A stretch of 64,000 nucleotides of DNA from Owenia fusiformis (lineage: Eukaryota > Annelida > Polychaeta > Sabellida > Oweniidae), in the NCBI GenBank assembly GCA_903813345.2, contig CAIIXF020000001.1, forward strand, positions 17,319,915-17,383,914. The letters run 5' to 3'. The position numbers were made by a program, and so were the translations under genes. The notes below the pieces were generated by a model, which did no database searches, was not told the DNA's origin, and was given only the letters and a program-made list of their open reading frames with translations. Shown in pieces: positions 3,101 to 63,576 of the stretch. The first letter of the stretch is position 1, and each line of letters starts with the position of its first letter.

Positions 3101-6100
3101 CCTCAGAAATTGCCTCACTTCGTGATACTTCAAGTATAATGTCTATATCACCATCAAGTGTCGTGCCAAGTGTATCAGCAAGTGTCTTGCCCAGTGCAAT
3201 TCCAACCACACCAAGTGTCCAGACAACAAAAAGCTACTCATCTTCTATACACGCAAACTACTTCACATTGCTGAAAGAGATAAAGGAATATCTTAAGACA
3301 AGTGATATGGCCGATGTTGAGGCATTTGTGTCTAATATTGTAAAGGACATTTGGGTCACACTTATCGGAGCTGATGGCTGGCTGGTGATCAATCTTGAGA
3401 TAAAAGAAGCAATTACACAATATGGGTAAGATGCATTTTTTCTTGGTCTATTTTATTTTATTATATGAAATGGCGTTTTAAAAAACTACCAAGTAGTCAC
3501 AGAGAAAAAAACACTATGTTAATATTTCAATTACCATATTAAAGGACAGTCGCTGTGGCTACCACGAATCATAATGTATATTATAGACGATATGAATGTA
3601 TTATGTGGCATGTGTGATATGATTGTCTGTTATTTCAATGTACTGTCAATTCTGTTTAAGAATCGATGCTGTACAGATAAACTACGATATTGAGTTAGTT
3701 GATGGCAGTGGCCTTAACATAGACACACTCCCAGAACCGGATATCACCAGAACCTTGGTTACTGATCTTACGACTGAAGTGATCAACCTAGAAGTTATCA
3801 GCATAGATGATGAGTCAGTGTTGGTATTTATGATGGAGCACGCCTTTAGGTTAGATGTCACTGATATTGTACTTGATGTGAAAAGTCATATGAGCATAGC
3901 AGCGCAGATAAAACTTGTGTGGGAGACTATGGATAGTAGTAAGACTTTTATAACATTTTATTTTTGTAAAATAAACAGTCCTGTTGTATTTAAAGTACAA
4001 AATAAGAAGATGACTTTTTTGTTGGAAATGAATGCATTGCCTCGAATCATGTGCTACATATATTGACTGTGAGGCAAAATCATAAAATAGCAATAAATGG
4101 TTTCCGAACAATATACCAACTCTCTTATGTCATATGTGAGACAATTTTTACTGCGTGTATGTTTTCTTTAAGGCTACTCAGCTGCCACATTTACTGTTGC
4201 TACCATACCAGAATACATTGGTGATGATGGGTAAGTATTCTACTAAGTGCTGATACTAATTGCACATTAATATTTTGCATTAATGGAAATTCATACTCCT
4301 ACTTCAAAACAATCTACCTCGACAAGTTTAGTGAATTATTTCAAATAATTTAAATTATGCATTTTAATATCCATTTGCATTCAGTATTGAAGTCTGGGCA
4401 ATACACTACTTTATCACGACTGCAAACGAGGTGCCCGTAGATCCATCAATGGTTGATCCTCCAGAGCCAAGTGATCTGGTAGCTAAGTTGTTAGAGTTAC
4501 CTCAGTTCACTGGTCTCCAGCTTTACACTGGGGAGAGTGTCAGCTACCGATACAGTCAGTCCCTGCTGGTTGAAGGTGTGGTCTTTGATGAGGACGTAGA
4601 CACAATTAAGACATCTCTGATGAACCTCTGGGAACTTGAAAATCCAGGTACATCTATTGGGAACCAGTATAGGCGGTGGGGTTCCTATATAAAAGGGTTT
4701 GGTTGTTGATAGGCAAATTTCATATTCCAAAATGATCTTGAATCTTGTGAACATTGCATATCAGGAAAGTTGTCATTTCTCGTCAGTGTAAAATACTTTT
4801 GATGATATATCTGATGTTGATATTTTTGATTTGGACAAAGCTTTCGGTCCTAAAAATCGTGGATAGACTCATGCAGTAACTAGTGAAATGTTCCCCCATT
4901 ATTCGCTAGATTGGTATTATACCCAAATTGATAGCTGGTAAGCACATCAAATGGAAACTAGTACATCAGATTGCATATTATATTTGTAGGCATGGCAATA
5001 GATGTTGACATAAAGCTGAGAGAGAAGGTTTTCTCCAAAAGGTAAGTAAATTATGACTAGACAGAGAAATTTTCCTATTTTCAAAATGATTAATTCCAAT
5101 AAAATGTATTCCATTGGAATTATACATTTTTAAAATTCATTACAGGACACAGCACACCATAATCATGTACAGTGTCAACGTTGAAGCTGTTATTGCTAAC
5201 TCTTTTGAGACTAACATTGACTTTGCCAGCATAAGTCGTCCAAGTATTCTGAATGACATAGAGTGGCCAGACAGATATGATATTGTGGATATACAAGTAG
5301 TTGATGTGTATCGATACAAACATGCTACGAAGTTCTCCGTCGTTGGAAATATACTTGATTCGAGTATTGATAATTTACAGCAAGCGATACGGACATCTTT
5401 AATAGCAGGTAATTCAATTTATTATTTTTTTAATCAAGAAGAATCCAAGATGTGTATGCTATGAACTCGTCAGAGTTATTATCATAAGTGAAACATAACA
5501 GAACACAGTTCAAAATATGTTCTCACTAGTAAGCTATTAGAGAAATATCGGTCCTTTAAAAAACGTCTGCGAGCTCAACTAGCCCTAAGGAAAACAAACT
5601 TTCAATGTTCAAAACGATGATCTAACAAACATCAAATAATGTCTACAAACCTCCTCCCCAACCATTTGCTATGATAATCGAAGATCATAGAACATCTGAT
5701 CAGGACATTGCAATCATATTACAGTCATAACAATACATCAACGTTGATATGCAATTGTTATTACAGAATATAAAGCCAGTGGTATAGATATTGGGGTTGG
5801 CTCCTCTCCAGGTGCAGTAGCAAACCAAACCAGCATTGACATAATGATCATCTCGATTGAACCAAGCATCGATGTATCTGGGTAAGTCGTCTATTTACAG
5901 ATCACTAGCAGTATGCAGTATTCTTTAATTGCTGGTAGATCTCTAGGATGAATCAAAATACATGTCAACTTTAATCTAGTTGAAAATTACCCTGATTTCA
6001 CCAGTAATTTCAACAGTAAATTTTCCTCGAATCAATTGTGTTGCAGTTAATATAAGAGAGACTGGGTGAAATAAATTGGGTGTATAATTCATATGTCAAT

Positions 6101-9100: not shown

Positions 9101-12100
9101 AGGTCGTTTATTCGGTACACAAGTCCTGGGGGTAAAAGGTCAAGGTAACGGTAATGATAACCTAAATATTTTGCATGCGATTAAGAGTGATGCTTTTTTA
9201 TTTTCCAGAAAGAGATGACTTTCAAGAAGAATTGTTTTAGCTTCAACCTTGATAAACCTGTCATGTTGAGTGATGTAGAGAACGTAAAGAAAGGAATAAA
9301 GGAAGCCTTTACAACAATATGTACGTATGCCTTATGAAGTTGAGGAAATACTTCAAGGAAGGCATATCGAAGCCAGGCACATTCTTCAAACATTGACTTG
9401 TTATGGCCATTACTTAAGAATTACTCGAGTAACATAGATGGCAAAAATGGCTCCACTTTTACAATTTTGTCATCAAGTGATTTTGGTTGAGTCATAAACA
9501 TTGTTACGCTTTAACGATGATTAAGATAACCTTTTTAAATGGCCATCAAATTCAAAATGGCCTCACTGTGTATAGAAGTCTGATTCATTTGTCGTCATTA
9601 TTTGAACAAAGTACGTCGTATTGTTGGATAGTATGAATGATTCTTTTTGCCTTAATACATCTCATTTTTTCCAGTTTCGTTAACCCTTGAAGTTCACATA
9701 GGTGTGCGTATGCAGTTCAATACAAATAGGTGAGATTTTCATGTATGCACAAATGAAGTATACTACAAGATACTATAGATATACATGTATATCTTATGTA
9801 TGTAAGATGTACCAACTTGAAGGTATTTCCAATGGGATCTCGTTAGATCGACATGAAAATTGCAGTAGCTGTCTTGTCTATTTTCTTGCATTATCTAACT
9901 TAAGAAGACAATACTGCATTATCAAATGTTGTCTTATTTTAGCGATCGCCTCTATTCTGTGTGGTTTTTCTTGGAAAGTGATGATGGTATCATTCAGCCT
10001 ACTACATTAGTAAGTTCTACCATAACAGCTATACAGAATGCAATCAACAAGCTGACTGTGACACAATACACGATCAAAAGCGCTGAGGAAGTAGACATAC
10101 TGCCTGATATGCTGTTCAAACTCTATATGAAGACAGAAGTTAGGCAAAGTGATATAAGTGCTGTTATTGAGGCAACCAAAACCTCATTCAGTGAGGCAAA
10201 CCCTGGTAAGTTATAGTAACTGGCTGATAAGACGTTGTAAAGTTTGAATAGTTGCCTTTCTCTTGACTCCAACTGGATTCTCATTAGGATGTTAAGACAT
10301 GTATTAGGCGCAATGTTTTTTCTTTCTTAGTGGAGGTTAATGCTGGGGTCATGTCAACAATCCCGAACGAGTGTTGTCGTTTTGTGATTTAGTGCCTGGT
10401 TTTCAAAAAGTACGAGTGTCGAATATATTTCGATGCTCTGTTATGATTTGATATGATTTGATTTGATATGATTTGTTAATTATAAAGTATCCGTGTTATA
10501 TGCATTTCAGACGTTGAGACTAGTACCCTGGAAGTAAAGATAGTTACTACAAAAGAAGTGGTCATAGACATTGATGATAGGTAACAAGAATACATTACAA
10601 TTCTATAATTTACTATGTTTATACAAATCAAAATTAACTAACCACATTGATATATTTGCGAGTGACTTCCAAACATTGTATATCAAATCTAGTTTACTAT
10701 AATACCTATGAAGTTCAATTTATTGAATATGTCTTTGATTGTAGCTCAAAGGTGGTGTATGAGTATGCCATATTGATAACACGCGTGGACACCGGAGTTA
10801 TAGATGCACGTAAAACAGAACCTCTAAAACTCCCCGAACTACCAGATGAGCTCAGTTATGAATTCATTTCTGTGGACGTAAACACTGTGATTATTGTACT
10901 GGAGGAAACTTTCTCCGTGGTCTTAGATTTGAAGATTCCTTTCTTCAGTATAGTATCAGTAGAAGAGAAGCTCACTAACATAATGACCTCTACAACATCA
11001 AATATTGGAAGCCTACGGGTCAGCACTAAAATTGTCTTCCAAGAGGAGTATCTTACAATTAGTGGGTAAGATACGAATTTGTTATTCCCCTTTTATGTTG
11101 CCTTTCCAAGGTTCTATGCGTGGAACAATTTGTAAGGTTAACTGCGCAAAATCATATGCAGTCAAGCTCTCAGCTTCATGGAAATGCAAGTAGTTATTAC
11201 ATGTAATGACTGTATTTTAGGTTAAATAGTTGCCCTTAGGGAATCTAGGTATAGTCATATTCTACGATTATTTTTACAGGGACACAGTTGTTAAACTCCA
11301 TTTCATGACTTACGACCGGTCTAAGAATACTACCATATTACCTTACACGGTGAACCCAATTGAGTTTACAGTTGTCGAGGAGGAGATATCCAACCTCAAC
11401 ATTATATTGAAAGTTATCAAAGATATTTACGTGGTAGCCATTAGAAAGACAAGCACCATATATCTATCAAGAGCTATTATAGATGAAGACGTTGAAAAAG
11501 TGGAAACATCGATCAAAACAACTCTAAGTAAGTAATGTTGTAATAACATAGACTAGTAAACAAATGGAATGTTTTGTCCGAGCTTCATGTTTTTTATTGT
11601 CTTGTCACATATATACCACTCTGTTAAAGTATAAGAATCGTATACCGGTATTACCGAGACACGCAACTGATGGCAGCCACTGCTTACCATCCAAACGATC
11701 TCAAAAACACTTATTAAATGATCAGAAGTAACCATTTACACTAATTACTGATTCGATTCGAGGAGTCCTAAGTTCCTATTATTTGTTTTAGGTATAAGCG
11801 ATGCAACAGTTTCTATCCTGTCTCAGCAATTGATGATCACATTGGAGGGGTGAGTACTTATTATTAAGTGCCGGGGTAAAGTCATATGGGCGGGCGAATA
11901 CATTTTGTACATTAAAATAATATGTAAAAAGGCAATTATCTACTTTAATTAACCATATGTGAAAAATTGTTTACATTGATATGAAAATTTATTGAATTCA
12001 ACTGTTGATGGAGTAACACGTCGAACCAGGATATGCCATAAAAAAACCCCCCAAGTATCCCGGATCTTGTGATATAGGTCAGCAGCTGAGCAAATTTAAA

Positions 12101-15100
12101 AAAATAAGTTTGTCCCCTAAGTTTCTCACTGGATTCATGTAGAGCAAGGTCTTGGGCTTATTTTGAGCTTGGGTTCTCTGTCCTAGCCCCGGCAACGAAT
12201 GTGAAAACTGGTCCTATAGGTGGCGCCCCCTACAATTCACCCCCAAACTTAAAACTAATTATTATTTTCATAATTTAAACATAAAGACATCTCAAATAGC
12301 TTAAATTGATCAATGGTACATTGAATTATGCATTAAAATTTTTTTCAATGTGTGAAAATCATGATTTATGGAGAAATAGTTGATTAACCCCTTAAAACGC
12401 CCCTATTTTAAAGGGGGTACTTAAGTTAACTTCCGTAACTTTTGTGTTATTCAGGATTCTGGCTTAAAAATATTCCTGAATATGTATAATTATGCTGTTG
12501 AGAGACTGCAGTAACCCTATGTTCATAGCTTTATCACTTTTTGAGAAAAAAAATAAAACGTATTTCCATATAATTTGGTTTCGTATTATTTTCATCTATA
12601 CTTTTTAATTTACTTTCCACACCTTATACCCATGCATAGTATTGATAGTTTTCTTTCATTTTAGACCAATATAGATGGCTGGAGTTCATAATAGTTCATA
12701 ATAATAAATAATAAAAAAAATTTAAGCAGAAATAATTAATTTACCCCTTAAGATGCCCCCTATTTTAAAGAGTGTGTGTGGGAGACTAAGGAAATATTTT
12801 TGAAATTCACATTCATTGAAAGCTTATGATGTTTGGCAATGGATGTTTTAATATGCTGATATTCATAATGGTGAGTTTAATATTAATAGCAAATGTAAAC
12901 CATCCAACATTTCTGAATAAAAGCAAAATTATAATTGATTTTACATCATGAGACAACCCCAAACCTGATATATCTCCTAGCGACCATTAAGTCCATGTTT
13001 TCACCAAGATCCACAATCCAATAACTGAGTTTTAAATACTCTAGCATGCATTCCAAGAGGATGAACCAATGTATGGGCTTATATAATTAAAGATTCAATC
13101 TCTCCTTGCAGGTAACTTACTAACATGTAAAGTAATTAAAACAATTACTACTTAAAGGAACATTCCTGGCCAAACCTTTTCTATCCTGATGTGATAGCTA
13201 TAATCATATATATACTTTCCATATTTAGCAAAACATGGGGAAATGTTTTAATATAGTCAACATTGATAATTTAAAAATGTAGTGCTCATTTCCAGTAAGC
13301 TGCCATCTTTTAAGATTTTACTCAGGAAGTGATGTCATCGACTCTCAACTTTCATGACCTTGCATATAACAGTATAGGAAAATAGCTCAATATCACTTCT
13401 AGACGAGTGATCCTTACTTTATGCGCAAAAAATATGTTCAGAGCTTGTCAGCTTAGAATAAAAGAAGAGACTTTTAGAAGGATTAAATCATAGACAAAAT
13501 TGAAAAAGAATATTCAGCTGGTTTTGTAATTCTTAAAATAGCTCCTTATAGTGTTATATGCAAAGTTAAGAGTCGATGACATCACTTCCTAAGTGAAATA
13601 TTAAAAGATGGCAGCCTACTGGAATTCGGCACTACATTTTCAAGTGATCAATATTGACCATATCAAAACATTTTACATATATGGTTATAGCTACCATATT
13701 AGGAGAGAAATGGTCTGGCCAGGAATATTCCTTTAACATATAATGTTTTTTGGATTGTGCTGTTACAATGACTGAATTGTGCTGGCACAATCACGTCAAC
13801 ACAATCAAGAGGTACATTTATTTCTCTTTGTTTGCTTCATCAAGTGATCTGAAAGATGAGAAGTAATAATATACATACAGGGTATTTCATATCTTTGCAC
13901 CCCTCCCCCCCATAAACTCATACATCTAGCATTGCTACCCTATCATTTTATGTATCATATCGAAAGTTACATAGGATTGCAAAGTTTCAGAATCAAGGTG
14001 TATCGCTGAAAAAAGATACATTGTATCAAAGATTGTGGGTACGGGGTCATTTAGAGGGCATTTCCTGGTGATTTTTCGACTCAGGTCGGTGATCTGTGCA
14101 CTTTTTCTCATATCCATTTTTAATGATAGAGGTCGCACCAGGGTCACTGGCCTCTCCATAAGCCACTGCAAGAATCCTATCTATACATCTTTGCGCATAA
14201 CTGTCACACTCATGTGCACTGAACTCTGCCATGATGACAACTGTTTGAAATTTGCAATACAGAAACTCAATTTCCCCTTAAAAGTGCCTTCAAACTGACC
14301 AGAAATTCCCCTCGAATGACCCATACCCACATACTTTGATAAGGCATTTCTTTTTTCAGTGATACCGCTGGATTCTGAAACTTTGCAATCTTATGTAACT
14401 TTCCATAAGGAGCAAGATATATATAACATGATGGTGTGGCAATATGACATGTATGAGTTTATGGGGGATGTATACATATGAAACACCCTGTATGCATTTA
14501 TTAGTTAAAGTGTACAGATATAAATATTTCTCCATACAAAGAAAGATATTTACTGGTTGTGTTGAAGTGATTGTGCCAACAAAACCCAGTATATTGTGTC
14601 AGCACAATACAAAAATGATAAATAGATAGCTCCAATTAGCTCTTCTATAGCCTTTGGTGATTCCCTAAAATGCCATGGAGGTGCTTTAATAGCCCCCTTT
14701 TATTCCTTAATAGCTTTACTGATAACCAGTATGCCCTGGTTGTGCTTTAATAACCCCTATTGATTCCTTAGTAGCCCTTGGGGACTACTTAGAATGCTTG
14801 GTGTTGTTTTAGTAATCCTGATTGGTTCTTTAATAGCTTTAGTAATGGCCTTAGTGATAAGATCACATGCCCTGGTTGTGCTTTAATAACCCTTATTGGT
14901 TCATCAATAGTCTAGGAAATAACCCAGTATATCCTGGTTGTGCTTTAAACATATGGTTCCTAATAGACCTTTGTGATTCCTCTGTATGCTTGGTTGTGCT
15001 TTGATTTCCCCCATTGGTTCATTAAATAGCCTTAGCAATTACCTACATGTAGTATGGCTGGTTGTGGTTTAATATCTCAAATTGGTTCCCTTTAAAGTGA

Positions 15101-18100
15101 TAACCTAGTATGCCCTGATTGGCTCTGATTGAACTTGATACCCACAATTGGTTCCTTAATAACACTAAGTGATTCCTCAGTTTGCTTAGTGATGCTTTAA
15201 TAATCCCTATTGGTTTCTAAATCTGCCCTAGTACTCCCTAATATGCCTTGCTGGTGCTTTGATAGCCACAATTGGTACTTTAATATCCATTAGTGATTGC
15301 CAAAGATGCCCTTGTTGTGCTTTTGTCACCCACATTGGTTCCATGTAGCCTCTAGCGATTCCCTAGTATACCCAGGAAGTGTTTAAATTCATAGCTCTTG
15401 GAGACCCCTAGTATGCCTTGTGGTGCTGCAGTATTCCTTCATGGTTTCCTAGATACCCTGATTGGTTCAATGGGCTTTCTCTTGAAAGCTCATGATGGTT
15501 CCAAGTAGGTCATCATGGTGTTCTGTTAGCCCCTAAAGAGCACTACAATGCATATTAGGAAGCACTAATGGGTATTTAGAAACTAATTAAAGCTCTCTGG
15601 GTATACTAAGGAATTGATAAGGGATATAATGAAACACATATGAGGTATTATGGCACAACCAGTGCATATTATGATAGCACTAAGGCTATAAAATAACCAA
15701 AGAACCAAAAAAGGATATTAATTTAAAGCACTCTTTCAGTCTTTAGCTTACTAGGGGTTCAGTTAAGACTATTGAAAAACCAACTAGGGATATGGTATGT
15801 GTAATATTTTTGTATTGTGCTGACCTTATTGACAGGGTTGTGCTGGCACAATTCGTGCAACACAACCAATAAATACCTTTCTTTGTTTATGGAGAAATAT
15901 TAATGCATGTACACTTTAACAAATATATATATTATTTCTCGTCTTCCTGACCAATAGATACAAAGATACAACATACGAAGAAAAATACTTTCTGCTGGTT
16001 GTGTTATGATGATTCTTCGAAAAAACATACATGCAGTATCACAGTGACATCAGATTAATAAGTTCATGCATTACTTACAACACTTTCTAAAAGCTTGATT
16101 AGATGGTAATTACAGTTACCACTTCCCTTGCACTTACAAAACATGCAACAATTAATTTTGTTCAGTTCACATAATCTGTTTTGTACCACACTTACTATAA
16201 TAAATTAGATGGAAGTAGAAATAATCTTGATTTGCGCCATTAAAAATTCAGTCAAAGTGATATCATATTTGAAATCTACATGTAAAATTGCATCTAGGAA
16301 TGTGTTTTTGCAACTTTGAAAATTTAATTTTCTTTGAAAATGCAATTTCTAGGTCGAAGAGATTCTCCATAGACCCCATGTTAATAAAATCACAAGAAGT
16401 GAAATATCTTTGCTTGTATTGGACAGATATAATTTTCTTTTACTGGGCATATTTTTTAATTTGTACTGTATATAACTGTCAGATACATAAGGTGATATGA
16501 AAATTGAAACACTAAAGCTGATGAATATTCAAGTTTAGGGGAACTTTCTAATACCCTGCCATGTTCGGCCCCGAATTAGCCTCCTGGCGGTGAAACTGGT
16601 AACTGCCTATTCGCATCTGGTGTATTACATTGTAAAATCAGATCATCAGGTGATATACAGAATATCCTTTGTATCAAGATCATTTTCAAGAACGAAGCCA
16701 TATTTCAATGGGTCAAGCTGAGTATTTGATAAAGTCAGATACCGTTGTCATAAATGGCGGACATAACTGTCGCTTCAACTCTTTAATCACTTGGTCCTCG
16801 TTTCTCATGGGATTTTATCATCACTAATTCTGTGCATGTATTAAGCTCATGTGATGATGTATTATATGAAATCCAAATTTCTATCAAATGGGGTCGTGAA
16901 TCGCCACAATATATCGTCTTCGATATCGTCAATGACAACAGAATCTGAATTTGAGATAATTTACAAAGACAACAGCATATGGTAAATTATTTATTTATTT
17001 AGGAGCAAAGGTTAACTATTAAGTCTCCCACACACACAAGTCTTCAAATTCAAGGATATTTTCAAGCCTAAATCTTGAACGAAACATAAGTTACAGTGAG
17101 TTATAGAAGCTATAGTATATGTATCCCTATATAAGGGGTGTTTTAAGAGGTAAATCAATAATTTCTGCTTAAATTTTTTATTATTATTTATTTTAAGTGA
17201 ACTACAGTCATCTATATTGGTCTAAAATGAAAGAAAAGTATTAATACTATGCATGGGTATAAGGTGTGGAAAGTAAATTAAAAAGTATAGATGATGGTTT
17301 ATCTGAAAGTAATACAAATCCAAATTATATGGAAATACGTTTTATTTTTTTTCTCAAAAAGTTATAAAGCTATGAACATAGGGTTACTGCAGTCTCTCAA
17401 CATCATAATTGTACATATTCAGGAATATTTTTAAGCCCAAATCCTGAATAACACAAAAGTTACGGAAGTTAACTTAAGTATCCCCTTTAAAATAGGGGGC
17501 GTTTTAAGGGGTTAATCAACTATTTCTCCATAAATTATGATTTTAACACATTGAAAAAATTTTTAATGCATAATTTAATGTACCATTGATCAATTTAAGC
17601 TATCTGAGATGTCTTTATGTTTCAATTATGAAAATAATAATTAGTTTTAAGTTTGGGGGTGAATTGTAGGGGGCGCCACCTATAGGACCATTTTTCACAT
17701 TCGTTGCCGGGGCTAGGACAGAGAACCCAAGCTCAAAATAAACCCAAAACCTTGCTCTACATGAATCCAGTGAGAAACTTAGGGGACAAACTTATTTTTT
17801 TAAATTTGCTCAGCTGCTGACCTAATATAGAAATGACGTTCATCTTTTATTCTTTTAATAAACTTGACTTTTTACGTATCCTGAATAAACAACCATTGCG
17901 TATTAATTACACAATTGAGACTTTAAGCTATGCATATGAAATCGGTACGTCGACCTGTACGCACAAGTTGCACTATACAAATGCATGTAGGTTTCTCACA
18001 TACATTACTGTATTTATTCATTGGTTTTGCGTCCACGGTTCCGTTGTGAAAAATATCGCTAACTTAACCTCTCGATTATTTCCGACCCAAAATGTAAGTA

Positions 18101-21100
18101 AACCCATTTGATGTGCATTATAGGGAATTTACGTACAAAGTAATCTACACAGTGACTGTAGAACAAGAGGTGGTCAATCCAACATTTATTGTCGCCATTA
18201 CTGAAGAAAAATTGGTGGAGATTTTATCGAGTGTCAAAGTGTCATCTAAACTTGACATAACGTATGCCGAAACCATTACAACAAAGGAAATAGTTGATGC
18301 TAGCACTATTGTTGAAGGGAGCACTGTCTTTATTTCAAAGCAAGAAATTGCAGTAGAGAAGTATGCAGCATTCGAAACAATCCTGAAAAAATCTATATCA
18401 GAGCAATTAATCGGTAGGATACATGCAAACATTTCTTTTGTTTACCGTTTAACGGAAGTGAAAATAGTATTACATGTGCACAAGCTTAGTCGGCACTGTC
18501 TGCAATAATGGTATTTTGTGTTCACTCTGTCAAATGTCTATTAATAACTCGGGATTATGACTTCTGATTCAGGATTTCAATTGAACCTATACTATTTCAA
18601 GTGATAATATAATGTTAAATGTTTAATTGAATTATATTTCAACCGTTGTAATTACAATATATATGTTTGATGTTAAACACTCTTTTGTTACCCATCCCAG
18701 CGTATCCAGACATGTCCTTTACTTTTATTGGGAAGGAAGAAGTTGTTCATAAGACTACTGGGTAAGTTGTCAACCTACCAAGCTTTTTAATTGATAGAGC
18801 CGATTTAAGGGTATATAGTTGAAATAATGGTCGCAGTTTTACAGTTCATTATGCTTTGCTCGCGGTAATCCTGGTCGTGACTTTATTGCAAACATACCAA
18901 GAAATCCGATCATGCTTTGATTTAAACTTTATAGCCAGTATGTTTTAAAAGTGGATGTTCAAGTTTACTTCAATAAGTTCCATATTTGGTCAGATAGGTC
19001 ATGGTATTTTCGAGATTTTAAATAAGATCGCAAGGAAGCAGAGATCATTGGTAGAGGTTCCTTACAAATCCTTTGCAACTTCTACTTTAAATTTTAACAA
19101 ATAAACTTAAATGCATAATACAGAAACCTAAATTCCTTAATACTGAACATATATATTACACGATAAACATTTACACATTTCAGGAAGACATTTTGGAAGA
19201 TTTATACAAGTTCCGCAGTGGACAATCAGATTATAGATGGAAGAACAATTGCAGACCTTAACCTTAATGGTACAAAAGTGAGACAAAAGCTAAATGATGC
19301 TCGGATATCCAGTCCCGACGGCTCAGTGTACGAGATTGTTGTAAGGCCGCAATACGATACTTATATTGAAACAAGAAGTGTTTTCTCCAGTGTTCTCAAC
19401 ATTGCTGTCACTATTGAGGATAAGACTGAATTTGAGGCCGTTTTGAAAGAATACTGGATGACAAAGCTTACTTCAGGTAAATCATGTCACAATTCAGTTA
19501 AACTGCCAGAAACGGCATATCGATTATATCTATCATTATTGTTTATCACAATTTGGCGACAATTACTGATGTGTAGATATGCAAGATTCTATTTGCAGAT
19601 TTTATATTATTTTTATGTTAGGTTCTGTTTGCAGATTGTGCATTTTTGTTATGTTAGATTCAGTTTGCAGACTTTACATTTGTAGTTATGCAAGATTCTG
19701 TTGACAGCTTATCTCATGTAAAATTCCGTTTGTAGATTATATATTATATTTCAGTAATATCTAGTACTTTGGCTGTCTCAATAGTGAGGTCACAGGAGGT
19801 CATCACCGAGGAAGGGTAAGTTTAAGCCAACATTTACTCTAAAGCAATTAAGAAGAGAAAAGGAGGTTCACACAAATGACATTTTGACACATTTTAATGG
19901 TATTAAGATCGCTCCATTGCGACTATTGTATTCAGGTATATACTTTTTGTGGAAACAAGCTTAAAATGATAATATTTTGTACGACCTTAGGAATGTCGCC
20001 TGGAGTATAGACTACACTCTTACCGATGATACCCAGTTACTTGAGTCTGTTAGGTTCACCTTTGTTGATACTACAACACTCACTGTTAAATTAGAAGCAA
20101 CCTTCGGAGAGAAATATAAGGTCCTGGATATTGACAAAGCTACAGTAGTGAAGTATGAGACATGTTCCTCTGTCTACACGTCTGTTGTCGTATCAGAGAA
20201 GGATGTCGTGGACTTCCAGGATTCAATTAAGTTCGTTCTTCTGGAGGAGAATCAAGGTATTGTTAGTGCTTGTAAAATCTATGATTTGAATAAGCTTAAA
20301 TTCCCTTCCCGATGTTCATATAGAGGAGAATTGTACGTTGCACTCGATATCATTTTATCAATCTATAAATATTGAAAATGGCATTTAATTTTGACTTGTG
20401 ATGTTTTGATATTTGCAGTTCTGAAAACGAAAATTGTGAAAGTGAAGATCTTACTACAGGAGGAGGTGATAGTAGCAGGGTGAGCTTCTTTACTATATTA
20501 TATTTTGTATGTGTATGTTATTCCCTTTTCATTAAACTATAGCGCAAAAATAAAGCATGTGTACATCCATAGTTTAGTACTTAATAATGTGTGTTATAGT
20601 TTATACCTGAACTGCCGCAGAATAAGGACAAGTAGATTATGAAATAAAATTGTCACACCCTTACATGTAATTAATTTAAGTGAAAATCATTTTAGTAAAA
20701 TTGTGAACAAGATATCATACAGCGTGACAGTGAATAAAGTTGTCAAATCGTCATCCGTGCTGATCTCCGTCGACACTGACAAGCTCACCAAGGAGATAAA
20801 AAGCATAGAGGGTCCCAAAGGCGTATACGAACTCATTGTGGTCAGTAAAACGGACAAAGTTGTACGATACACACAGACGATGTCCTTGATTTCCGAATTA
20901 AAGGTTGCAGAGGAAGATTTTCAGTCATTTGCCTTTAATCTGACCGAATCTTGGAACGAACAACTTGTTTGTAAGTGCATTCCATTTATTATAGGTTTTT
21001 AAGTATAGTTTGTTATAAGAGTAATCAATAATTGAAATTCAATAAATTAAAAATAACAACTTATGGAGTATAGGCAGTATTTGTATTTGCCAAGTTCTAT

Positions 21101-24100
21101 TATTTAGTTGTTTTTGTTCAGTATATTATGCCAGATACGTTATCTTGTTACCCTTCATACAAAATAAAGTAATTGTATTGTGTACATGTATAATAATTTG
21201 TGCTTATTCTTTCAGCTAAATCTATTTCTCTCAGAGTCATTATTTCGGTTGTTTATCAAGAGGAAGTTGTTGTTGATGGGTAAGAAAACAATTGGTGTAT
21301 TATTACAATTTATTAGTGTATGAACCTCAAAAGGCAAATTTAAATACACTTAAAATCAGTTAATAGATTAGTAAAACAAAACTGTAATATTTATAGGATA
21401 TCCTATGATTTTGAGGAATATCATTTTTATCTACGAGGTGATTGATATCTGCACGAGAGAGCGAAGCGAACGAGTGCATATATCAATATCACCGAGTAGA
21501 TTAAAATGATATTCTGAAAAAATCATAGGATGTTCTTATTATCCTACACTTACAAGGAGTGTACTAAATGCATAATATCATTGCAAAATGAATTCCATGC
21601 CAAATAGAGTCAATTTGGCGGGAAATCAACAAGCGGAGTATATCGTCACAATATCCTCCGCATATTGGTGTTTCCGGAGTATATCGTCACGATATCCTCC
21701 GCCCGGAGTATATCGTTACGATATCCTCCGGATATTCATTTTGCCAATAAATATCAAATTTATTTTTTAATGTTATTATATATTTAGTACACTAAGTGTA
21801 GGATAATTTATCATAACCTTGTAGAAAATTTGCCTTCAAGCTGTGTTACACAGTATCATCTGGTGACGATGACAATGATATCATCACTCCCATCGTGTTA
21901 CCATCCCTGTCTGTATCAGTGTTCAAACTGGCTATCATTGCTCAGAATGGTGTGTCCTACACACTGATAGATGTGACTAGTAAAACTGTGGTCAGGACCA
22001 AGCAAACATATGGAATATACATGAAGACCACTGTACTTACAACTGATGTTACTGCTGTAGAGATTGCCATGGTTGAACTTGTATCTACGACAGTGCGTAA
22101 GTACATCAATGCAATACGCCTTAGTGGCAGAAGCACATTTCCAAAGAACAAGTCATTGTTTTGGATATAATGGGTTAGTGTTTGGCTAGTTGTGTTCTTC
22201 GATGTTCTAGTCACTGTTTTGTAATAATCTTATCTTTAACACTTTGACTCTTTTGACAGCTTTGGTGTTTGGGAAAATGTTTGAACAATATGTTTTTCGT
22301 ACTTTTTCAGTTATTTCTAGAAGCAAGCTTGAGGTTAAATACATTGCAACTCAAGAATATGTGCAGGTTTCAGGGTAAGCTTTTTAGTTAAATCTAAAGT
22401 CACATAATACTGAGTAAAATAACATTAGAACATTCGATGCATAATCATTCAAGTTGTGTGCATTTAAGATGTTTTATTTGTCCCATATTTGTTACAACGG
22501 AAATATTATAGTGATATGTAATTTCGTCAGATGTTTATTTCATTTTACAGAGAGACTGTATACAAGGTCCTGTTCTCAATAAAGACACTGAGCACCATTG
22601 TGAATCTTAACAACTATAAAGCTATCAGTGAGGAAGACCTAAAATTCACACTGAATATCGATATAACTTCTAGAGGGATTAAGTATTCTGATCTTCTGGT
22701 TGAGTCAACCTCAATATCAAAGCTTACACGGAAAACTGGACTGTTTAGTTTTGTTTGCACCGAGCTCATAGATGTGGACTCATTGGAAAGGTTCAATACT
22801 GTCATTGTTGAATCTTATTTTGAATCCTATTCAGGTAGGATGTATAACCATCCATAACACTACATTAAATCAATGATTCTAAATAATGATACAAGATATA
22901 TTTAGAATGCATATGATTTATGACAGTTCTATGTTAAAGAAACAAAACAAAATATCTAAAAATACGTGATCTCAATAACTAATCTTGTTCACCTAAAGAA
23001 GTGAATGTATCTATCGTACATTTATCTATCGTATTTATTTATAGCTATAGTAACAACAGTTGTGATTGGGGACATTAAAGCAACGATAACTGGGCAAGAG
23101 CGTGTCTATGTTAATGGGTACGTTATAACATTATAATTCAGAAATATTTCAAGCTATTTCAAATGTAATTTATAGTATAATAACTGAATAATTTGAATTA
23201 ATTCTCTCTTCCAGGAATATATATTACAATGTGCTCTTCAAGATTTCGGTTTCTCAAGTGACATTGGATTCTCGTACATCTATTCGAATTAACCAGCAGA
23301 GTCTGAAGGTGAAGATTGAAACTGCAAACATCACTTCACTTAATGAACTAAAATACGTGGCTGTTATTGTAGACGAAACAACTATTCTGAGAGAATCAAA
23401 TGCTTTCTCGATTATTCTAAAGGATAGAGTAATTGATACAGACTTAGTTGAAATGGAAATTCAGTTGCAGAAATATTACAAGGAAACTCTTGGTTAGTCT
23501 ACAATCCAAGACATTTTCAAACTTTATTTTCTTTTCAAAATGAGGAAAGACTGGTGCGTTAGATATAAACATGGAGTAGATGTCTCTAGTTTCAATTTCT
23601 CAAGCTAATTTTAGTATTATGTGTTGGTAGTCTTATGACTGAGCAGTTTTCTTCTATCACATGTTTAGGTGTAGACTTGGTTTATATTAAACAATCTCGT
23701 TTCAGGTTTGACCATAGATATCAAAATATCTCAGCAAATAGAAGTTGTTACAGAAACAGGGTAAGTTCATGAACAGCAAATGAAGTATCCATATAATTAT
23801 TATGTCACCACCAAAAGTGGTGACATATTGTTATGGTCTCCGTTTTTTTGCGACGGCGGTTGGTGGTTGGCGTCCGGCGGTTGGTGGTTGGCGTCCGGCG
23901 TCTGTAACAATTTCTTACAACTTCCTATAACTTAACAAATACTGTTTAGATTGACTTCAATTTTTTTCTAAATCATCTACATGTTCTCAGAAGTTCAAAT
24001 CTGACTTTAGATTTGACATTTGACCTTCAATGACCTTCTCAAGGTCAAAAAGGTCTTTTTTCAACTTGCTTCAAATTTACTTAATTTTTTTTCAAAATCA

Positions 24101-45100: not shown

Positions 45101-48100
45101 GACCTTCTTGCGACTAATGTTGAAGCTGAGCAAGGAACCAATATTTATGTGTGTCAAGAGACAGGTATGTATGCAAATATGAATATGTGTTTGCGAGGAC
45201 AAAGGGGAAAAACCGAAAATTGTTAAGAAAATATCAAGAAAAAGAAAAAATCTAAGAGTGCATCAGTAGAAAGGAAAACAAACCCAAACTATCCCAAATC
45301 ATAATCCAACCTTAAAGGAAATGGGCATTTGAGGACCAACAATGCAGTTAAATGTTGTAATTTGTATTGTCTCAAATATGTAAATTAGAGCAGCGAGAGT
45401 CAACATCTATCCACACACAATAATTACAACATATATACTATATCTATTTTAGCAACGAGGGTCAATATTTATCCACACACGATAATTACAAAATAAATAA
45501 TATATATTTATTTTTAGCGAATGATTGTCTTAACACAAAGTTCATCATGCAAGAAGAAAAACTTGTGGACTATGCACTGTAAGTTCAAGTATTTAGAATT
45601 TAGTTGGCATATTTGTCAGTCATATTTACCTCTCACGCATCAATGAAATTGTATTGATAGTGAGTCGGAGAAGAGGAGGGGGACCCCTAGAGCTTTAGCG
45701 ATGATAGACACATAACGTTACGTCACCTTCGTTTGGGCAAATTTTCACAAGTTAGATTTTAAATATAACACGTCGTTGTGATATTTTGATCGATGCAGGC
45801 ATATTCCTTACAGCTTTCTTTATATTGATGTGAAATAACAAGCTATGATATTATTTAACACGCCAGAAATTAATTAATAATAATAATATTATTCGAAGCA
45901 TTATTTAAAATTTTTGAATCCGCCATTTTCGTTTGTCGATTTGGACCAAACAGGACGGTGGGTCATCTCAATACAGATTTACATTAAATACGTACGTCAT
46001 CTTTGAACCCTGGGATTTTCCCCCTCTTGCGTCGGAGAAAGCAAAACAATGTATGAAACGAATGAATAACCCACTGATAAAAAGCTTTCATGATACTTTA
46101 TGAAACTGTTTTATTTCTTCAACTTCGTAGTGGCCCAGTGTTCAATGTGTACTACCTGGTCAGATGTGATAACATTGTAAAAGATGTTCGTATGGAACCT
46201 GCAATCATTAAATCAGATCTAGAAGTCTACATCGATGAGGACAAGTTCACTATTGCTGATGTTGATATCAGAAATACAATAAACTATAAAGATGCTTGGT
46301 ATATTGATTTGTCCACGCATGTCCTCGATACTGACATTCCTGTCTTGAAGAGTGCCATACGTGCAGCACTTTTAGAGACCAATGTTGGTAAGAATATACT
46401 TTTTAATTGTTATTAGTTTTTCAGTGAATGAATTAAACATAAAGTTCGAATTGATGCATAATTTTGATCCTCACAAGACGATACAATTACCTTGATTACG
46501 TACAGTGTACATGAAAGTTTATTCCATACTGTAAATTTGCAGGTCTAAATGCCATTATGTTCAGTGTAAACATTTTGGCTCGTGAGCAGGTCATCTCTAC
46601 TACCGGGTATAGTATTTATCATCACACTTAAATAAATAAACTTCTATCAGGGATGTAATTTGAATTTTACTTTGATTAGACTACACTTTTTGATAGAAAC
46701 ATGTTAGCTGAAAATGATAAGCTATCATTATAAAGTTGACGTATCACCCGACCTTTACTTTATTTTGGAAAAAAGTCATGCTTGATATATTTATATTATT
46801 GTTTTCAGAACCATTGGGACTCGGGTACTTTACAAGATACAATCCGATGACAGTTTAATACATACCTTAGACCTCAATTCCAAACTAGACATCATTACAC
46901 TACAAGCCAAGCTTGACGAGTTTTTCACTATTTCATTGTATACAGCGGTAGATCTTGTATCATCTGGACCAGTCTATCAGTATAATCGGAGGTTTACACT
47001 CGTATCAACTCTGAGGTTGCAGGATGAACTGCTTGAGGAGTTTACGAAATCACTGCAGCTTGGCATGAAGTTGAAATTGACAAGTAATGTGATATATTTT
47101 ACTTCTAAGATATACATATTCATAATCTGAAATTTAAATATAGATGTAAAAGCTATTCGACTTCCTGATGTTGGATATACAGTAACTACATGGTTATCCA
47201 ATAAAGACATCTGGTATAAATATTTATAAATATTGTCATGATGTGATCGTTGTTTGTTTATGTATTTTAGAAACCATCATTTTACCATCCAGGTATACAT
47301 TTATATGCTTTAGATTTCCCCCAATTTGATGTTGACGTGACAATTGTAAAGCAAGAGGAATATTATGATGGAGAAGGGTATGTTAGTTGACATATGCCAT
47401 TCCTGTAAAACGAATTTGAGGGATCGGTCCTTACAAGAAGCAATAAAGCTCTAAGATTTTGGCAATATTTTTATATATCCCCTTTGCAAATTGATTCAAT
47501 ATTTTTTTTATTTTAGGAACTCAGTTTTGGTGATTACTTACTTCATCACTGTCAATGACCTTGTGATAGACTCTGGGGTTGTAGAGACAATATCCAATGA
47601 AAAACTTGAAGAATATATTAACTTTACATCAACAACCCAGGAGGAGTTCAAATTCATCAAATTTACAAAGGAAATAATTTCAGCTTCGTCGGTCGTAAAA
47701 TTCATATTATCCAAGAAGATTGTTAATGTAGATATTCTAAGGATTGAGACAAGTGTTAAGGAACTAATCAAGGGGTCGTTTAACATGCAGAATAGTAAGT
47801 AATCCTTTATGTGTATTTTTCTTACATAATGCAATATGCATGATCGTCTAACAAAAGTATGTTTATAACGAAAGAAAATTTGACAATTATACAATTGTAT
47901 TAGTACAATATATATTACTATTCAATTCAAACTATTATTTGGTAAGATATATGGAATGAACTCTACGCTGCTAATTCTGACAAATTAAGGCGTCCATAAT
48001 TTGGCATTTTTTATTAATTTGCAGGTGACTTGGAAGTGAAAATACTACGACAGAACATCATTGTCACAAAATCAGGGTAAATCCAATACATTATGATTTG

Positions 48101-51100
48101 AATAAGTGTATGCATTATAGTAAATAAAGTGGAAACTTTGGAAATAGCTTGTAATGTTAATCATGAGGACTATGCATACATTTTCAGAGCAATTATTATA
48201 TGACTGATTTTAACCAATTTTGTGTTTAGTTTTTTTGCCAATGATATTGTTTGGGTTTCAAACTTTGATATAAACTGTGTAAACTGATCAGATTATTTAT
48301 TTAAAACATTTTGAAAATATGAATAGTTCTTCAACATTGTATATATTCAGGGTAACACTCACTGAAGTCATTCTCAAAATCCGATCTGAGGATAAGGACA
48401 TTAATACATTTGTACCTGCTAACAATACACTACAAGCAGTTGTTACATTGGCCCTCCAAAGCGTTTTTGTAACTGGAGGACATGTGTCGTATGGTGCATT
48501 AGTCGTTCGAGATGTCAAGGAAACGTTTAATTCAGAGTCAATCTTATCAGTTGTTATCTCTACAAAAGTACAGAAAACAGATGAGATAACCTTCGTTAGA
48601 GCTGTCAAAGAAACGCTCAGAAGTCAATTTAATAGTACGTTATTATTTTATAATAGTCACAATCAAGCAGTATTATGAAAACAAGGATAAAGTTTGTTTA
48701 TCGTGTAGCTTTTAACTACAAGATTGCTGTTTCATATTATATTTATGATATTACTTTTATCAATGAATTTGAGAGTAGTAAAGACGCAACCATTTGAATT
48801 TAATGTACTGCTCATTTATATATATATGTTTATTTTGTTGTTTATTATATAGACTTGCTATTTTCATTTTTTAGTTTCTATAGCCAGTGAGTTTGACGTG
48901 GTGTTGCTAAAGCAGGAAGAAGTCAAAATAGAGAGAGGGTAAGAATACCTGAATACATAGTATTAAGTCGCTAATAGCTATCAGCAGTGAACTTGGTCAG
49001 TAGCTTGTAGACAGAGTCCCGTCAAAACATTATGGTCTCAAGTCCAAATGATATCGTAAATGCCAATGTTGCGCTCTGCAATAAAACTTACTTTTTGTAG
49101 GAACTACACTTTTCAGTGCAGAAACATCTTGGCATTTATTTAATTTATTTATTTCATACATTTACAGCTTAACTGCTGTCAAGATCTCAGTGGCAATCCA
49201 GTCGAACACAACGCTGGTAACGGATACTGTAATAACAACAGAGATAGATGTAGAAATATTGAAGGAAAAGCTTACAGAAGTTGGCCTCGACTCTCTAAAA
49301 GTTGTTGTGACTGAATCAACAAGTGTTGTAACATCAGAAAGTACTTTCAAGCTACGATTCTCTACGAAGATAGATGTTACAGAAGTTATCAAAATAGAAA
49401 GGGCATTACGGGAATACCATAAGAAAGCAAATGCAGGTAATGATCGTATGTTAATGTAACAAAAATGCCATAACAAATGCATGGACGTAAGAGAGATCAT
49501 TTAAATATGTCCAACTATCAGAAGGAAATCTTCGATTCAATTTATCTTTTTATTGCATCAAAGTGTTTGGTATTTGTGTTGTTTAGTACATTGGTCAGAC
49601 ATTGTTTGCACATTTCTTATCTTGTTTAAGAGTGTGTCAGTTGGACAGAAACAAAGAGAACTCTTATACTGGCTGGGCGAAACATTCCAAGTATTGCATC
49701 ACATGAACTGTGTAAACCTGTATGTGAGATGGACCCAACATGCAAAGCATTCAACTATATGCAAAGCACACAGAACTGTGTCCTTCATGAATATTACTTA
49801 AATGAGGTGGATGATGATATGGTGGTAGATAGTGATGGATTCAACTTGTTCCAGTGTACAAGAGAAGGTGAATACTTTGTGCATGATTTTCTCTATCAAC
49901 TGAAGTGTTGATAGACGATATAACAATTAATAAGATATATAGGTATAAACGTATATTATTCATGAACTGATATTTATTATTGTTCACCATGGAATCTTTG
50001 TTATGTTTTCCTGGATGTTTCCATTATCTGATTACAACCTCTGAAAAGCAAAATTTTAAATTAGAATTTTATTAATTATTACTTTTGGAGTATATCCTAA
50101 TAAAGTCGTCCTGCTTCGTTATGTATTTCTTTTTTAACTTTCAGACACAAGTTGTTTCAACGTGAAATTTATCGGAAGCAGTGAGTTTGTCGATAACAAC
50201 AGGTAAAGTAGGCATTGAAACTGATATCTTTGAACAACACAAAACACCGACTGTCTTTATTTAGCAGTTTAAATGCTGATGCCTTTTGCATTGTGTGTAC
50301 TATACTAATCTAGTATATTTGGCATAAAATATAATATTTTGCTTTCAGGAAATCGCTTCACGAGATCAGCTATACTTTAAAATGTGGTGACAAAATTATC
50401 AAACCTGATGAATTACCAGCCCCTGATATATCTGTCATCCAAACATATATCACAGCAACTAATACTTCACTCAAGCTGGTTGAATCGACCAGTGTGAATA
50501 TAACAAAGGTTACAGAAACACATAGTATCGTGGTGAACAATTTTGTCACAATGGAAATGTTTTCCAAGTTTGAAGTTGCTATAAAATCAGCATTTGAAAA
50601 GAAATTAGTTGGATCTATATTCAATGTATTCATTCTCAAGCAGGAACAAGTCCTATTGAAGGATGGGTAAGGATTCAAATATTATAGTGTCTTACTATTT
50701 AGAGATAAATGATTGAGTTACATCTTCTTGAAATAATTGGTGTATGCAATATTTGTTGACAGCATTATGCTTAACCCCCTCTGAAAACGGAAAAAGAAAT
50801 ATCAATCCATTGTCCTTAAACATTTATTGAAATTATTATGATTTTCTATTGCAGAACCATGTATTGGAAGTTATTTTTCACAGCGAAACCATTGACAGAC
50901 ATTGCATTTGACATTACCAGTATCATTGGAGAGATTACCACATCCATTGCTCAAGCAAATATTGAGGGTCCAAGAGAAATGTATAGCATTGTGCCTGGTA
51001 TAAATATTACATTCCCATACGAGCAGCGTTTCGACTTATTCATCGGATCTAAAGTAGCGGTTCAAGATTATGTCAAATTTGAGAAATCGTTAATAGAGGT

Positions 51101-54100: not shown

Positions 54101-57100
54101 TCAAACTATCCTATACATTGTCACTGCAAAACGATTCAAATTGTGATGTTGTGGCTGAAATGAAGACATTGACATCGACATTGGATACAATTACAATAGA
54201 TGATATTGTGATATCAGTTGATGCCCCGGTTGGAAGGGAAGCCTACAAATTAATAAGTAGTGATGATGAAATTGTTGTATCGGTTGAGAAACGTTTAGCA
54301 GTGTACTTTGATAATATGCTTGATGAATCTGAATTGACAAGAGTTGTAGTGGAACTTACTATGGCATGGTCTGCTATTAAAACAGGTAACTCAATCGTAT
54401 ACTGCATGTGTATTACTGTTTACATGTTTAGTACTTTATATATTCCCATCTGAATTGGGAACCAGTTGAGTAAATAGGTATAGTATGTGTAGAAAACAAC
54501 AACATTGTGACTAGAGATCAACATTGTCCAACAAATGTTATAATTATCAACCAATATATACAATCCGCATATGCAACACACTATTGTTTTTACTTCACTT
54601 GCAGGAGTAGTTGTTATCAAACGGGGACTACTGAAGGAAGTTATTACTGACATGGGGTAAATTAAATACTTTCTTATTTCTAAAGGTATCATAAGTCAAG
54701 CAAATTGTTCTACCAGGTATTATACTATAATTAGTGTCAATTAGGGATATCACATAAATGAATGAATATTGATTTTAAACTCATTATATGTCAAATTTAT
54801 AGAGATACAAAGTGGGTTTTGGATTATTTCCTGACAATTGATGGTCAAATCATTGATGGAGGCCTAGAGGACGACAGTATGGTTATATCGAACATTGTTG
54901 GAAAACTACCAGAGTAAGTTTGTTTTGATTATGATTCAGGGTTATATTTATAATATTTGTTTTGTATCATGTGGATTAATTAGTGTATGCCTTTCTAATG
55001 AATTATTCGATATGTTGATTATTTCAATAAACTTTCTAATTGTATTTATGTTCAACCTTTAGGTTGAATATAAGCGTTAATGTAAGTGGAACAGTGACTG
55101 CAATGATGACTAGTGCATTGGCCTTGAAGACAAAAATACTGATGGAAGATCGACCAGCCATTGAACTCTCACTTAAATCAATGTGGCAAGACTTTACAGG
55201 TAAGCAGTATACTTAGTGAAAGATGATCATGGATATACTGAATTAAAACAACTCCGTAGTCAAACAACATAACGTCAACATTCAGGAATCTCTCAACCTT
55301 ATTAACCCATTCATTATACTTGCTATAACGCCTAAACGAGGTGTTTTAACTGTTATTTTCTCATTGGTCCTGAAAAACATACTATCTTGCAGTTGGTTGA
55401 ACAAATTTAATTACTGATTTACGTGACATGTACTAGTATGACATAACTAATATTTATATTGTTTACAGGAGGTAGTGATGTAACTGTCAAGATCGTCAAC
55501 CAACAACAGTTCCTTACGAAAACTACTGAGTCCGTCTTCAAGGTACTTTACACTGTATCTGTTGATGGCAATCGTATAGATACCAGTGCATACAGAGTCA
55601 TTACCTATGACATGTACAATACACTTATTGAGGATATAAAGATCTCGGGCCTGGAAACAACATACGCAAGTCTATTAGTTGATGAAACATTGTTGGGTCC
55701 CCTGTCCAGAGTTGAAATGGAGGATGTTGTGTCGTTCTTTATCACCAAAAAACTTATTGCAAATGAAAGTGAACGATTTGTCAATATCATAAAGACGAGG
55801 AGTGAAAAACGTTTCAAGAAGGATGTGATTGTGGACAACTTAAAACAAGAAGAGTTCATAGATCAGTTTGGGTGAGTTAGAAGACATGTTCTGAGATCCT
55901 ATGTTTACAATTAATTTTATATATTGTTGATGATCATGATTGAGAACGCACAAACCATAAGGCTCAATAGTATTTTATCGTTTTCTTACTAACCAAATTA
56001 TTGTGTTCTTATTTTAGCCTAACATTTGTGAAGTTTAGCTTCACATTGGAGACAACATCTGGACGTCTTGAGCATATTGTGGCATTGCAATCATCTGAAC
56101 TAAATGTGTTAAAACAGGAAATAGCTAAAACAGATTTGGAGCTTGAGATTGCAAATGTTGATATAACAAAACTGAAAGATGTGTCATCATCTTTCAAAAT
56201 ATTGCTGACATCTAAAATACCTAAAGTAGATAGAACCAGTATAGAGAATTCAATGATTCAATACTATAAGGAAAGTTTAGGTAAGTGTTTCATGTTTCAT
56301 CAAAATATAACTTTACACAGCTTTTTCAGTGCTTCGGAAACCTATTTGCATATACATGTTTCTCATTCTTAACATTAAATCATTCCTTGATTGTATATGG
56401 AATATTTTTATATTTTAGGATTAGATTTATCTGTACAGATCGCCATGCAGAAGGAAGTACTAACCACGACAAGGTGGGATATAATTGACATTGTTGAATG
56501 TAAATTGTTAGGATTACATCAAATACGTTTTCATGTGTAATGCATTCGTGTTTTTATATCAACTTTAAATACATGTGGTTTCTTATATCAACCGACTTTG
56601 TATTTTAATTGGTTATATGGATTTTGACGTTATTAGAATGTTTCCCTAATGTCGTCAATATAATGGGACAGATAGATATGTATAATATATGTGATTGATG
56701 CAATTATTTCAAAGAAGAATGTTGCGCCGATAAAAATGTTTTAACTTTTGAATAATTGGTTATCGTTTTGTTATAGAGTGGTAAATCAAGTTACATACTT
56801 CATATCATCTGACACCATGATAGAAAAGACATCGGACGAATTGGAAGTATCCACCACTCAATTTAATGCAATACTCAAAGCCTCCAAGAAGCAATATGTA
56901 TCAATAGACAAGGAACAAACTACTGTCATAAAGGATAACCAAGTATTTGAATTACTACTGAACAAAGCAATTCATGAAACAAAGTTCCAACAAATCGGCA
57001 ATGTTATAAGGAAGGCTATCATCACTGGACAAAGTCCATCTATTGAAACTAGCTTGCTGCGGGTCAACATAAGGAGTGTTAAAGAAGTCATAACGGCAAC

Positions 57101-63576: not shown

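Follow-up and report, generated by a model that had tools for sequence, protein, structure and literature searches.

Delta-type Notch ligands are defined by MNNL, DSL and EGF domains (PMC8166818), and the joint presence of MNNL and DSL has been described as strong evidence for Delta (PMC6040629). The Notch-binding face of Jagged-1 includes residues R201, R203 and F207 (numbering as in PMC3415683). Human MUC16 contains 19 SEA repeats with Pro/Ser/Thr-rich linkers (PMC10829539), and SEA-like domains without a cleavage site occur in Notch and other receptors (PMC6586460). In the A-band of titin, the positional similarity of domains is clear in the middle and weak at the ends, and similarity by position inside each block has been connected with the thick-filament period (PMC10665226).

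In one predicted membrane protein, a locus of the annelid Owenia fusiformis unites a titin-like super-repeat with a head of the Notch-ligand type and a domain family that Pfam lacks. The combination is apparently new: in the open-licence literature, the titles and abstract openings on super-repeats, on arrays of SEA domains and on giant proteins with DSL domains showed no comparable protein. The window, meaning the whole stretch of 64,000 nucleotides that was analysed (G000:C1:17319915-17383914 of a 498-Mb assembly), sits within a 62-Mb contig, and the gene extends past both of its ends. The whole gene model runs from -13,991 to 90,553 in window coordinates, with 183 exons, 11,247 residues and 87 units, and reads in a single frame from MNNL to the terminal stop; its sole stop lies at 90,553, and one intron has a GC donor. 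The exons were chosen open, so that the 11,247 codons are stop-free partly by selection. The order of parts is MNNL, three DSL with several EGF domains, a 104-aa domain, a Ser/Met-rich block, 87 units, a Thr/Pro stalk, a transmembrane helix and a tail. The MNNL exons and two of the DSL domains, with EGF exons, lie upstream of the window, and the third DSL domain lies inside it. The first exon is absent from the model: a search of the 36 kb before the first MNNL exon gave no convincing start codon and no convincing signal peptide, but two weak candidates near -42.9 kb. Head and array probably belong to a single transcript, and the predicted protein is probably secreted. An extracellular setting of the array had been claimed by an earlier reading made from the letters of the window (the sequence-only reading), and this appears to be right. 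Four features escaped that reading, mostly because they lie outside the window: the head of Notch-ligand type, the membrane anchor, the super-repeat of five units and a short paralogue.

On pieces joined by eye, the MNNL domain scored 25.6 bits (cut-off 22.5) and two DSL domains scored 41.5 and 45.2 bits; a separate search of the genome gave 24.6 bits for MNNL. When the head splice candidates were ranked without forced phase, the best ones were phase-compatible at 8/8 junctions, including one tie; at one head exon the model takes a longer candidate of identical phases that ranked third, and the ninth junction (to e1) was read by hand. On the + strand of the window, the head EGF series ends with the EGF-type exons e1 (33-192) and e2 (340-368), recognised by Pfam EGF and splice sites. 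The third DSL domain (633-1025; PF01414, 49.1 bits, cut-off 24.2) is encoded by exons e3 (633-726) and e4 (951-1025). Exon e5 (1215-1526, +), a phase 1-1 exon without a Pfam match, encodes the 104-aa domain, which may be a second new domain. Exon e6 (1754-3425, +) contains, in one open frame, a cysteine-rich start, a Ser/Met-rich part (25% Ser, 11% Met) and a part interpretable as helix 2 plus strand 4 of a unit. The Ser/Met-rich segment is encoded by a 111-bp tandem repeat (2157-2897, 6.7 copies, 90% matches); such a Met content (11%) is unusual in mucin-like sequence.

Like Delta and Jagged, the predicted protein has MNNL, DSL and EGF domains in the same order and one transmembrane helix, and MNNL and DSL are both present, together with EGF repeats, as in the Delta type. 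It differs from Delta and Jagged in that its three DSL domains are dispersed among EGFs, an unnamed domain fills about 9,700 residues between head and membrane, and the Notch-binding Arg and Phe residues are replaced. By motif alignment, the places of R201, R203 and F207 read T/V/T, E/Q/H and E/S/A across the three DSL domains, a replacement in 3/3. A homologue search with the head returned 18 proteins, and those inspected matched in the EGF and DSL parts, indicating that animal proteins were present in the searched database. In the ten of these 18 that are Delta-type matches with the motif recognised by pattern, Arg is present at R201 in six and at R203 in seven, and Phe at F207 in eight; the best head match (P0001) also lacks these Arg and Phe residues. 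The F199 place is Leu in 7/10 Delta-type matches, and is thus little informative. Because the binding-face Arg and Phe are missing from all three DSL domains, activation of Notch by the head is doubtful, and what marks the head as a Notch ligand is its apparent descent rather than any clear sign of function.

The sequence-only reading had described at least 65 tandem copies of an unrecognised domain in one giant gene, at 3661..63576. The exon-by-exon model, with its single frame, bears out the one giant gene. The start at 3661 stands and the window holds exactly 65 units, the last short exon of the window ending at 63375; a further 22 units follow downstream of the window, up to 88.5 kb, giving the total of 87. 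The borders of some downstream exons are uncertain, chiefly around unit 85, and for units 79 and 82 the splice score, taken by itself, would favour shorter exons than those in the model. Within the window, the array comprises 125 exons (two of them PAN) on the + strand (3661-63375), with 7,415 codons and 0 stops, and AG and GT flank 125/125 exons. Since these exons were picked as open and in phase, the stop-free frame is not independent evidence. Independent support for the exon model comes from the strand and reversal control of the profile and from the five-unit register, neither of which was built in by the choice of exons. The iterated long-exon profile matched 60 + strand stretches at domain E<0.05, and in its last round neither the - strand nor the reversed frames gave any match; an earlier round gave one reversed-frame match, and two weak - strand matches upstream of the window (best E 0.028) were not counted.

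The alternation of long and short exons was recovered by splice-site search. The long exon enters in phase 2 and leaves in phase 1, and mostly encodes 82-100 aa; the short exon enters in phase 1, leaves in phase 2 and encodes 14-25 aa. Apparent breaks in this plan are fused long and short exons, split long exons or inserted PAN exons. PAN exons (phase 1-1, +) stand between the long and short exons of unit 42 (44928-45164; PF00024, 24.9 bits) and unit 47 (49631-49867; 32.7 bits; cut-off 21.4 in both cases). Short exon 55 is fused with unit 56, placing an intronless complete unit in one exon (55469-55871, +); unit 52 is likewise encoded by a single exon. Units 7, 27 and 62, all of class 2 in the five-unit register, have additional phase-0 introns; these were considered as a block marker and rejected, as their positions differ. 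A unit-like fragment (DNVQYRLLFTIKNNEF) lies in an intron near 41.9 kb without usable splice sites, and may be what remains of a lost unit, or an exon that was missed. It was rejected as a counted unit, the preceding short exon joining the next fused exon directly with the register unbroken, and is treated as a relic. The units are strongly diverged (pairwise identity median 15.7%, maximum 28.7%).

All-versus-all comparison of the 65 units gave mean local scores of 55.4, 51.6, 49.4, 47.8, 51.5 and 48.7 at separations of 5, 10, 15, 20, 25 and 30, while every other separation up to 32 gave between 35.1 and 44.9. Period 5 had z values of 13.9 (score) and 10.4 (identity), and 0 of 2,000 order shuffles scored as high; periods 2-4 and 6-9 gave no signal in the 65 units against 2,000 random orders. 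Over all 87 units, z for period 5 was 14.6. Units 11-65 (18124-63375, +) form eleven five-unit super-repeats in register. They are separated by a 6.3-kb intron (11850-18123, +) from the head units 1-10 (3661-11849, +), which are outside the clear register and do not hold it. Leave-one-out sorting into five classes was right for 50/65 units by mean score and for 48/65 by class profiles; by mean score, 2/11 of the first eleven units were sorted correctly, compared with 48/54 of the later units. In sliding five-unit windows, which overlap so that the counts are not independent, the same register was best in 56/56 windows spanning units 6-10 through 61-65 (by narrow margins in the earliest of these), in three of the five earliest windows before units 6-10, and in 23/24 of the tail (60-64 to 83-87). 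The register is clear from about unit 11 to 80, is weaker in units 66-87 and fades past about unit 81.

Three single-residue class markers were found at p<1e-4, against a mean of 0.04 and a maximum of 2 in 200 label shuffles. Tyr in helix 2 marks class 2, being present in 9/11 class-2 units and in 1/44 others, and both PAN exons are in class-2 units, five units apart. Trp in helix 2 was rejected as a class-4 marker (9/11 against 3/44), since it fails in the tail, where other classes carry Trp too. The holding of the register provides a check on the exon model, because a false or lost unit would shift it. The super-repeat of five is titin-like with regard to positional similarity at a fixed block length, as judged by comparison of unit sequences. 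As in the titin A-band, there are repeats of repeats, and domains at the same position are most alike, clearly in mid-array and weakly at the ends. Titin, in contrast, lies inside muscle cells and is built of Ig and FnIII domains, whereas the present array consists of one unnamed domain in blocks of five, with a predicted membrane anchor.

The sequence-only reading could assign no family to the unit, and this judgement has held. The profile check against Pfam that it proposed was run with alignments of 53 and 48 units and with the consensus and gave no known family; these searches, together with those of single units and spliced pieces against Pfam, of the consensus against NCBIfam and of PDB by sequence, returned only weak, inconsistent matches. 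Matches to V-ATPase subunit D (NCBIfam, E 0.002, 17.7 bits, cut-off 72) and RET_CLD3 (E 0.0013, in 1/48 members, below cut-off) were rejected as chance. The short exons were left out of the unit alignment as separate rows, as they misaligned. An exon-sized homologue search gave 355 candidates, none at E<=0.001. A search with a 2,767-residue chain gave 7,996 candidates, none at E<=1, and covered proteins of about 1,520-4,840 residues, a range outside which giant orthologues would fall.

For SEA (PF01390), 0/53 and 0/48 alignment members matched, nor did the consensus, while Pfam SEA controls gave 34.9 bits for a MUC1 fragment and 33.9 bits for a SEA mucin of the same genome. Profile comparison of the unit with a thin set of five SEA sequences gave a probability of 0.1%, and 19/200 column shuffles scored equally high. 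The earlier claim that there is no SEA cleavage motif is confirmed, with GSVVV in 0/87 units; GS[VIL][VIL] is present in 1/87, close to the unit end. The consensus can be read in the strand-helix-strand-strand-helix-strand order proposed earlier, but this order was weakly supported, and in part: in the hydrophobicity of the 87-unit alignment, with segments set by eye, strands 1 and 3 showed strand alternation (p 0.016 and 0.032) and helix 2 was helical (p 0.003), but periodicity was not significant for helix 1 (0.096), strand 2 (0.5) and strand 4 (0.17). Structure prediction, also proposed in that reading and bearing on the ferredoxin-like alpha/beta sandwich of SEA domains, yielded two high-confidence helices but almost no paired strand (AlphaFold; pLDDT 83.8, pTM 0.52; an earlier attempt on the unit gave 74.1 and 0.44). 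Comparison of the AlphaFold unit model with three PDB chains gave no match. The fold of the unit is unproven, and a very remote SEA origin is conceivable though unlikely.

After the array, VTTKPGD-type repeats form the Thr/Pro stalk, followed by a hydrophobic helix and then a tail some 80 residues long. This helix is the strongest in hydrophobicity (3.26; next best window 1.92). Judging by the order of parts, a membrane-anchored stalk is more likely than a free form of the long fibre suggested by the sequence-only reading.

At least seven MNNL matches were found in the genome: two strong (116 and 113 bits), both on contig C8, and five at 24 to 31 bits including the present gene. The two strong loci are taken for canonical Notch ligands. 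One of the weaker loci, on the same contig as the giant gene (C1:52.30 Mb), is a paralogue with an MNNL exon and, about 10 kb on, a Thr-rich exon with VTGTGEPG-type repeats. This locus was read at the MNNL exon and again from about 8 kb beyond it, an interval in which the DSL part would fall. Six unit-like long exons score 31.8, 18.9 and, in four cases, 5 to 10 bits, so that only two score well; against the 87-unit profile, the paralogue units gave E values of 1e-11 to 0.011. Five short exons lie between or before the long exons and one is missing, with phases imposed by the search, and the paralogue ends in a hydrophobic helix (3.49) and a tail frame. Its unit 5 has unit 87 as the best match among the 87, and both carry a C-x-C motif. 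The other MNNL loci are L015, L016, L017, L019 and L021, the three weak ones being on C150 and C5. No clear units were found in the 30 kb after C5:7.84 Mb, the 20 kb after C5:15.68 Mb or the 10 kb beside the C150 locus, stretches that start 6 to 10 kb away and are maybe too short; one weak profile match beside the C150 locus (E 0.0045) was not counted. A genome search with units 50-53 gave nine places, all within the giant-gene locus. We infer that a short gene probably came first and that one copy grew by blocks; the opposite direction would be a paralogue that lost units. With its approximately six units, the paralogue may make the growth of a giant protein traceable within one genome.

The explanation that we consider probable is a giant membrane-anchored protein with a Notch-ligand-type head, an 87-unit stalk and five-unit periodic surfaces, grown by blocks from a short gene. 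The exon plan, domains, register, paralogue parts and hydrophobic helix are established at the sequence level; the stalk shape, periodic binding and growth by blocks are presumed. The array would act as a long stalk that holds the head far from the cell, reaching about 0.3 micrometre at an assumed 3 to 4 nm per unit. By analogy with titin, the super-repeat might bring the same surfaces round at even intervals, suited to a periodic partner or a regular twist, and the array may have been enlarged via duplication of five-unit blocks, with a short gene as ancestor. More tentatively, this could be a Notch-ligand-type branch without canonical Notch binding that became a molecular ruler or tether, built from domains of a new family and a new fold and expanded by five-unit blocks from about six to 87 units, in which the number of blocks would set the reach and the five-unit spacing would provide a periodic contact surface. 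If the DSL head no longer binds Notch, a signalling ligand would have turned into a structural surface protein.

We regard as unlikely a reading in which the unit belongs to SEA as a highly diverged member and the gene encodes a MUC16-like membrane mucin with a linker-free SEA array. The apparent strand/helix order is the same, mucin-like blocks and a transmembrane anchor are present, and the cleavage-free SEA-like domains of receptors and the 19 repeats of MUC16 offer precedents; against this, the Pfam SEA model matched none of the alignment members while both controls scored, the profile comparison gave a low probability and was equalled by 19/200 shuffles, though with a thin SEA set, and GSVVV is absent. 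The gene and MUC16 share a Ser/Thr-rich block, tandem small alpha/beta-like domains and one transmembrane helix, but here there are 87 units with no evident linker exon, and these match no SEA model. Rather less plausible is a working ligand, in which the DSL head would engage Notch on a remote cell, with the long stalk bearing the pulling force. The pairing of MNNL with DSL, the EGF domains and the single transmembrane helix favour such a role, while the replacement of R201, R203 and F207 in every DSL domain and the existence of two much stronger MNNL loci argue against it.

That head and array are two neighbouring genes, the array perhaps being a separate secreted fibre, is improbable. A 7-kb intron does separate the last MNNL from the first DSL exon, but phases match across the head; e6 opens in phase 1, is cysteine-rich and ends in a unit part within a single frame; the array terminates in a membrane helix; and the paralogue has the same order of MNNL, mucin-like exon, units and helix. 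The great divergence of the units and the stray fragment near 41.9 kb could suggest a decaying pseudogene or an assembly artefact, which we consider highly improbable given 11,247 codons without an internal stop (in exons chosen open), the preserved register and splice sites, and the location in a 62-Mb contig.

Rfam and tRNA searches of the window gave no matches. Elsewhere on the contig, L001 (G000:C1:55213368-55213589) is a SEA-EGF-transmembrane mucin whose 2,987-aa open frame carries many TTTQAAEDN-type repeats and a cleavage-type site, GSIVM. Downstream of the paralogue, EGF-like exons on the - strand (L024, about G000:C1:52335000-52338000) suggest that another EGF gene adjoins. Introns of the giant gene contain tandem repeats of 125 bp (23950-24269) and 62 bp (45389-45505). 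An intron near the array end (L005, about 85.6-86.8 kb in window coordinates) contains broken frames that presumably resemble a mariner/Tc1-type transposase.
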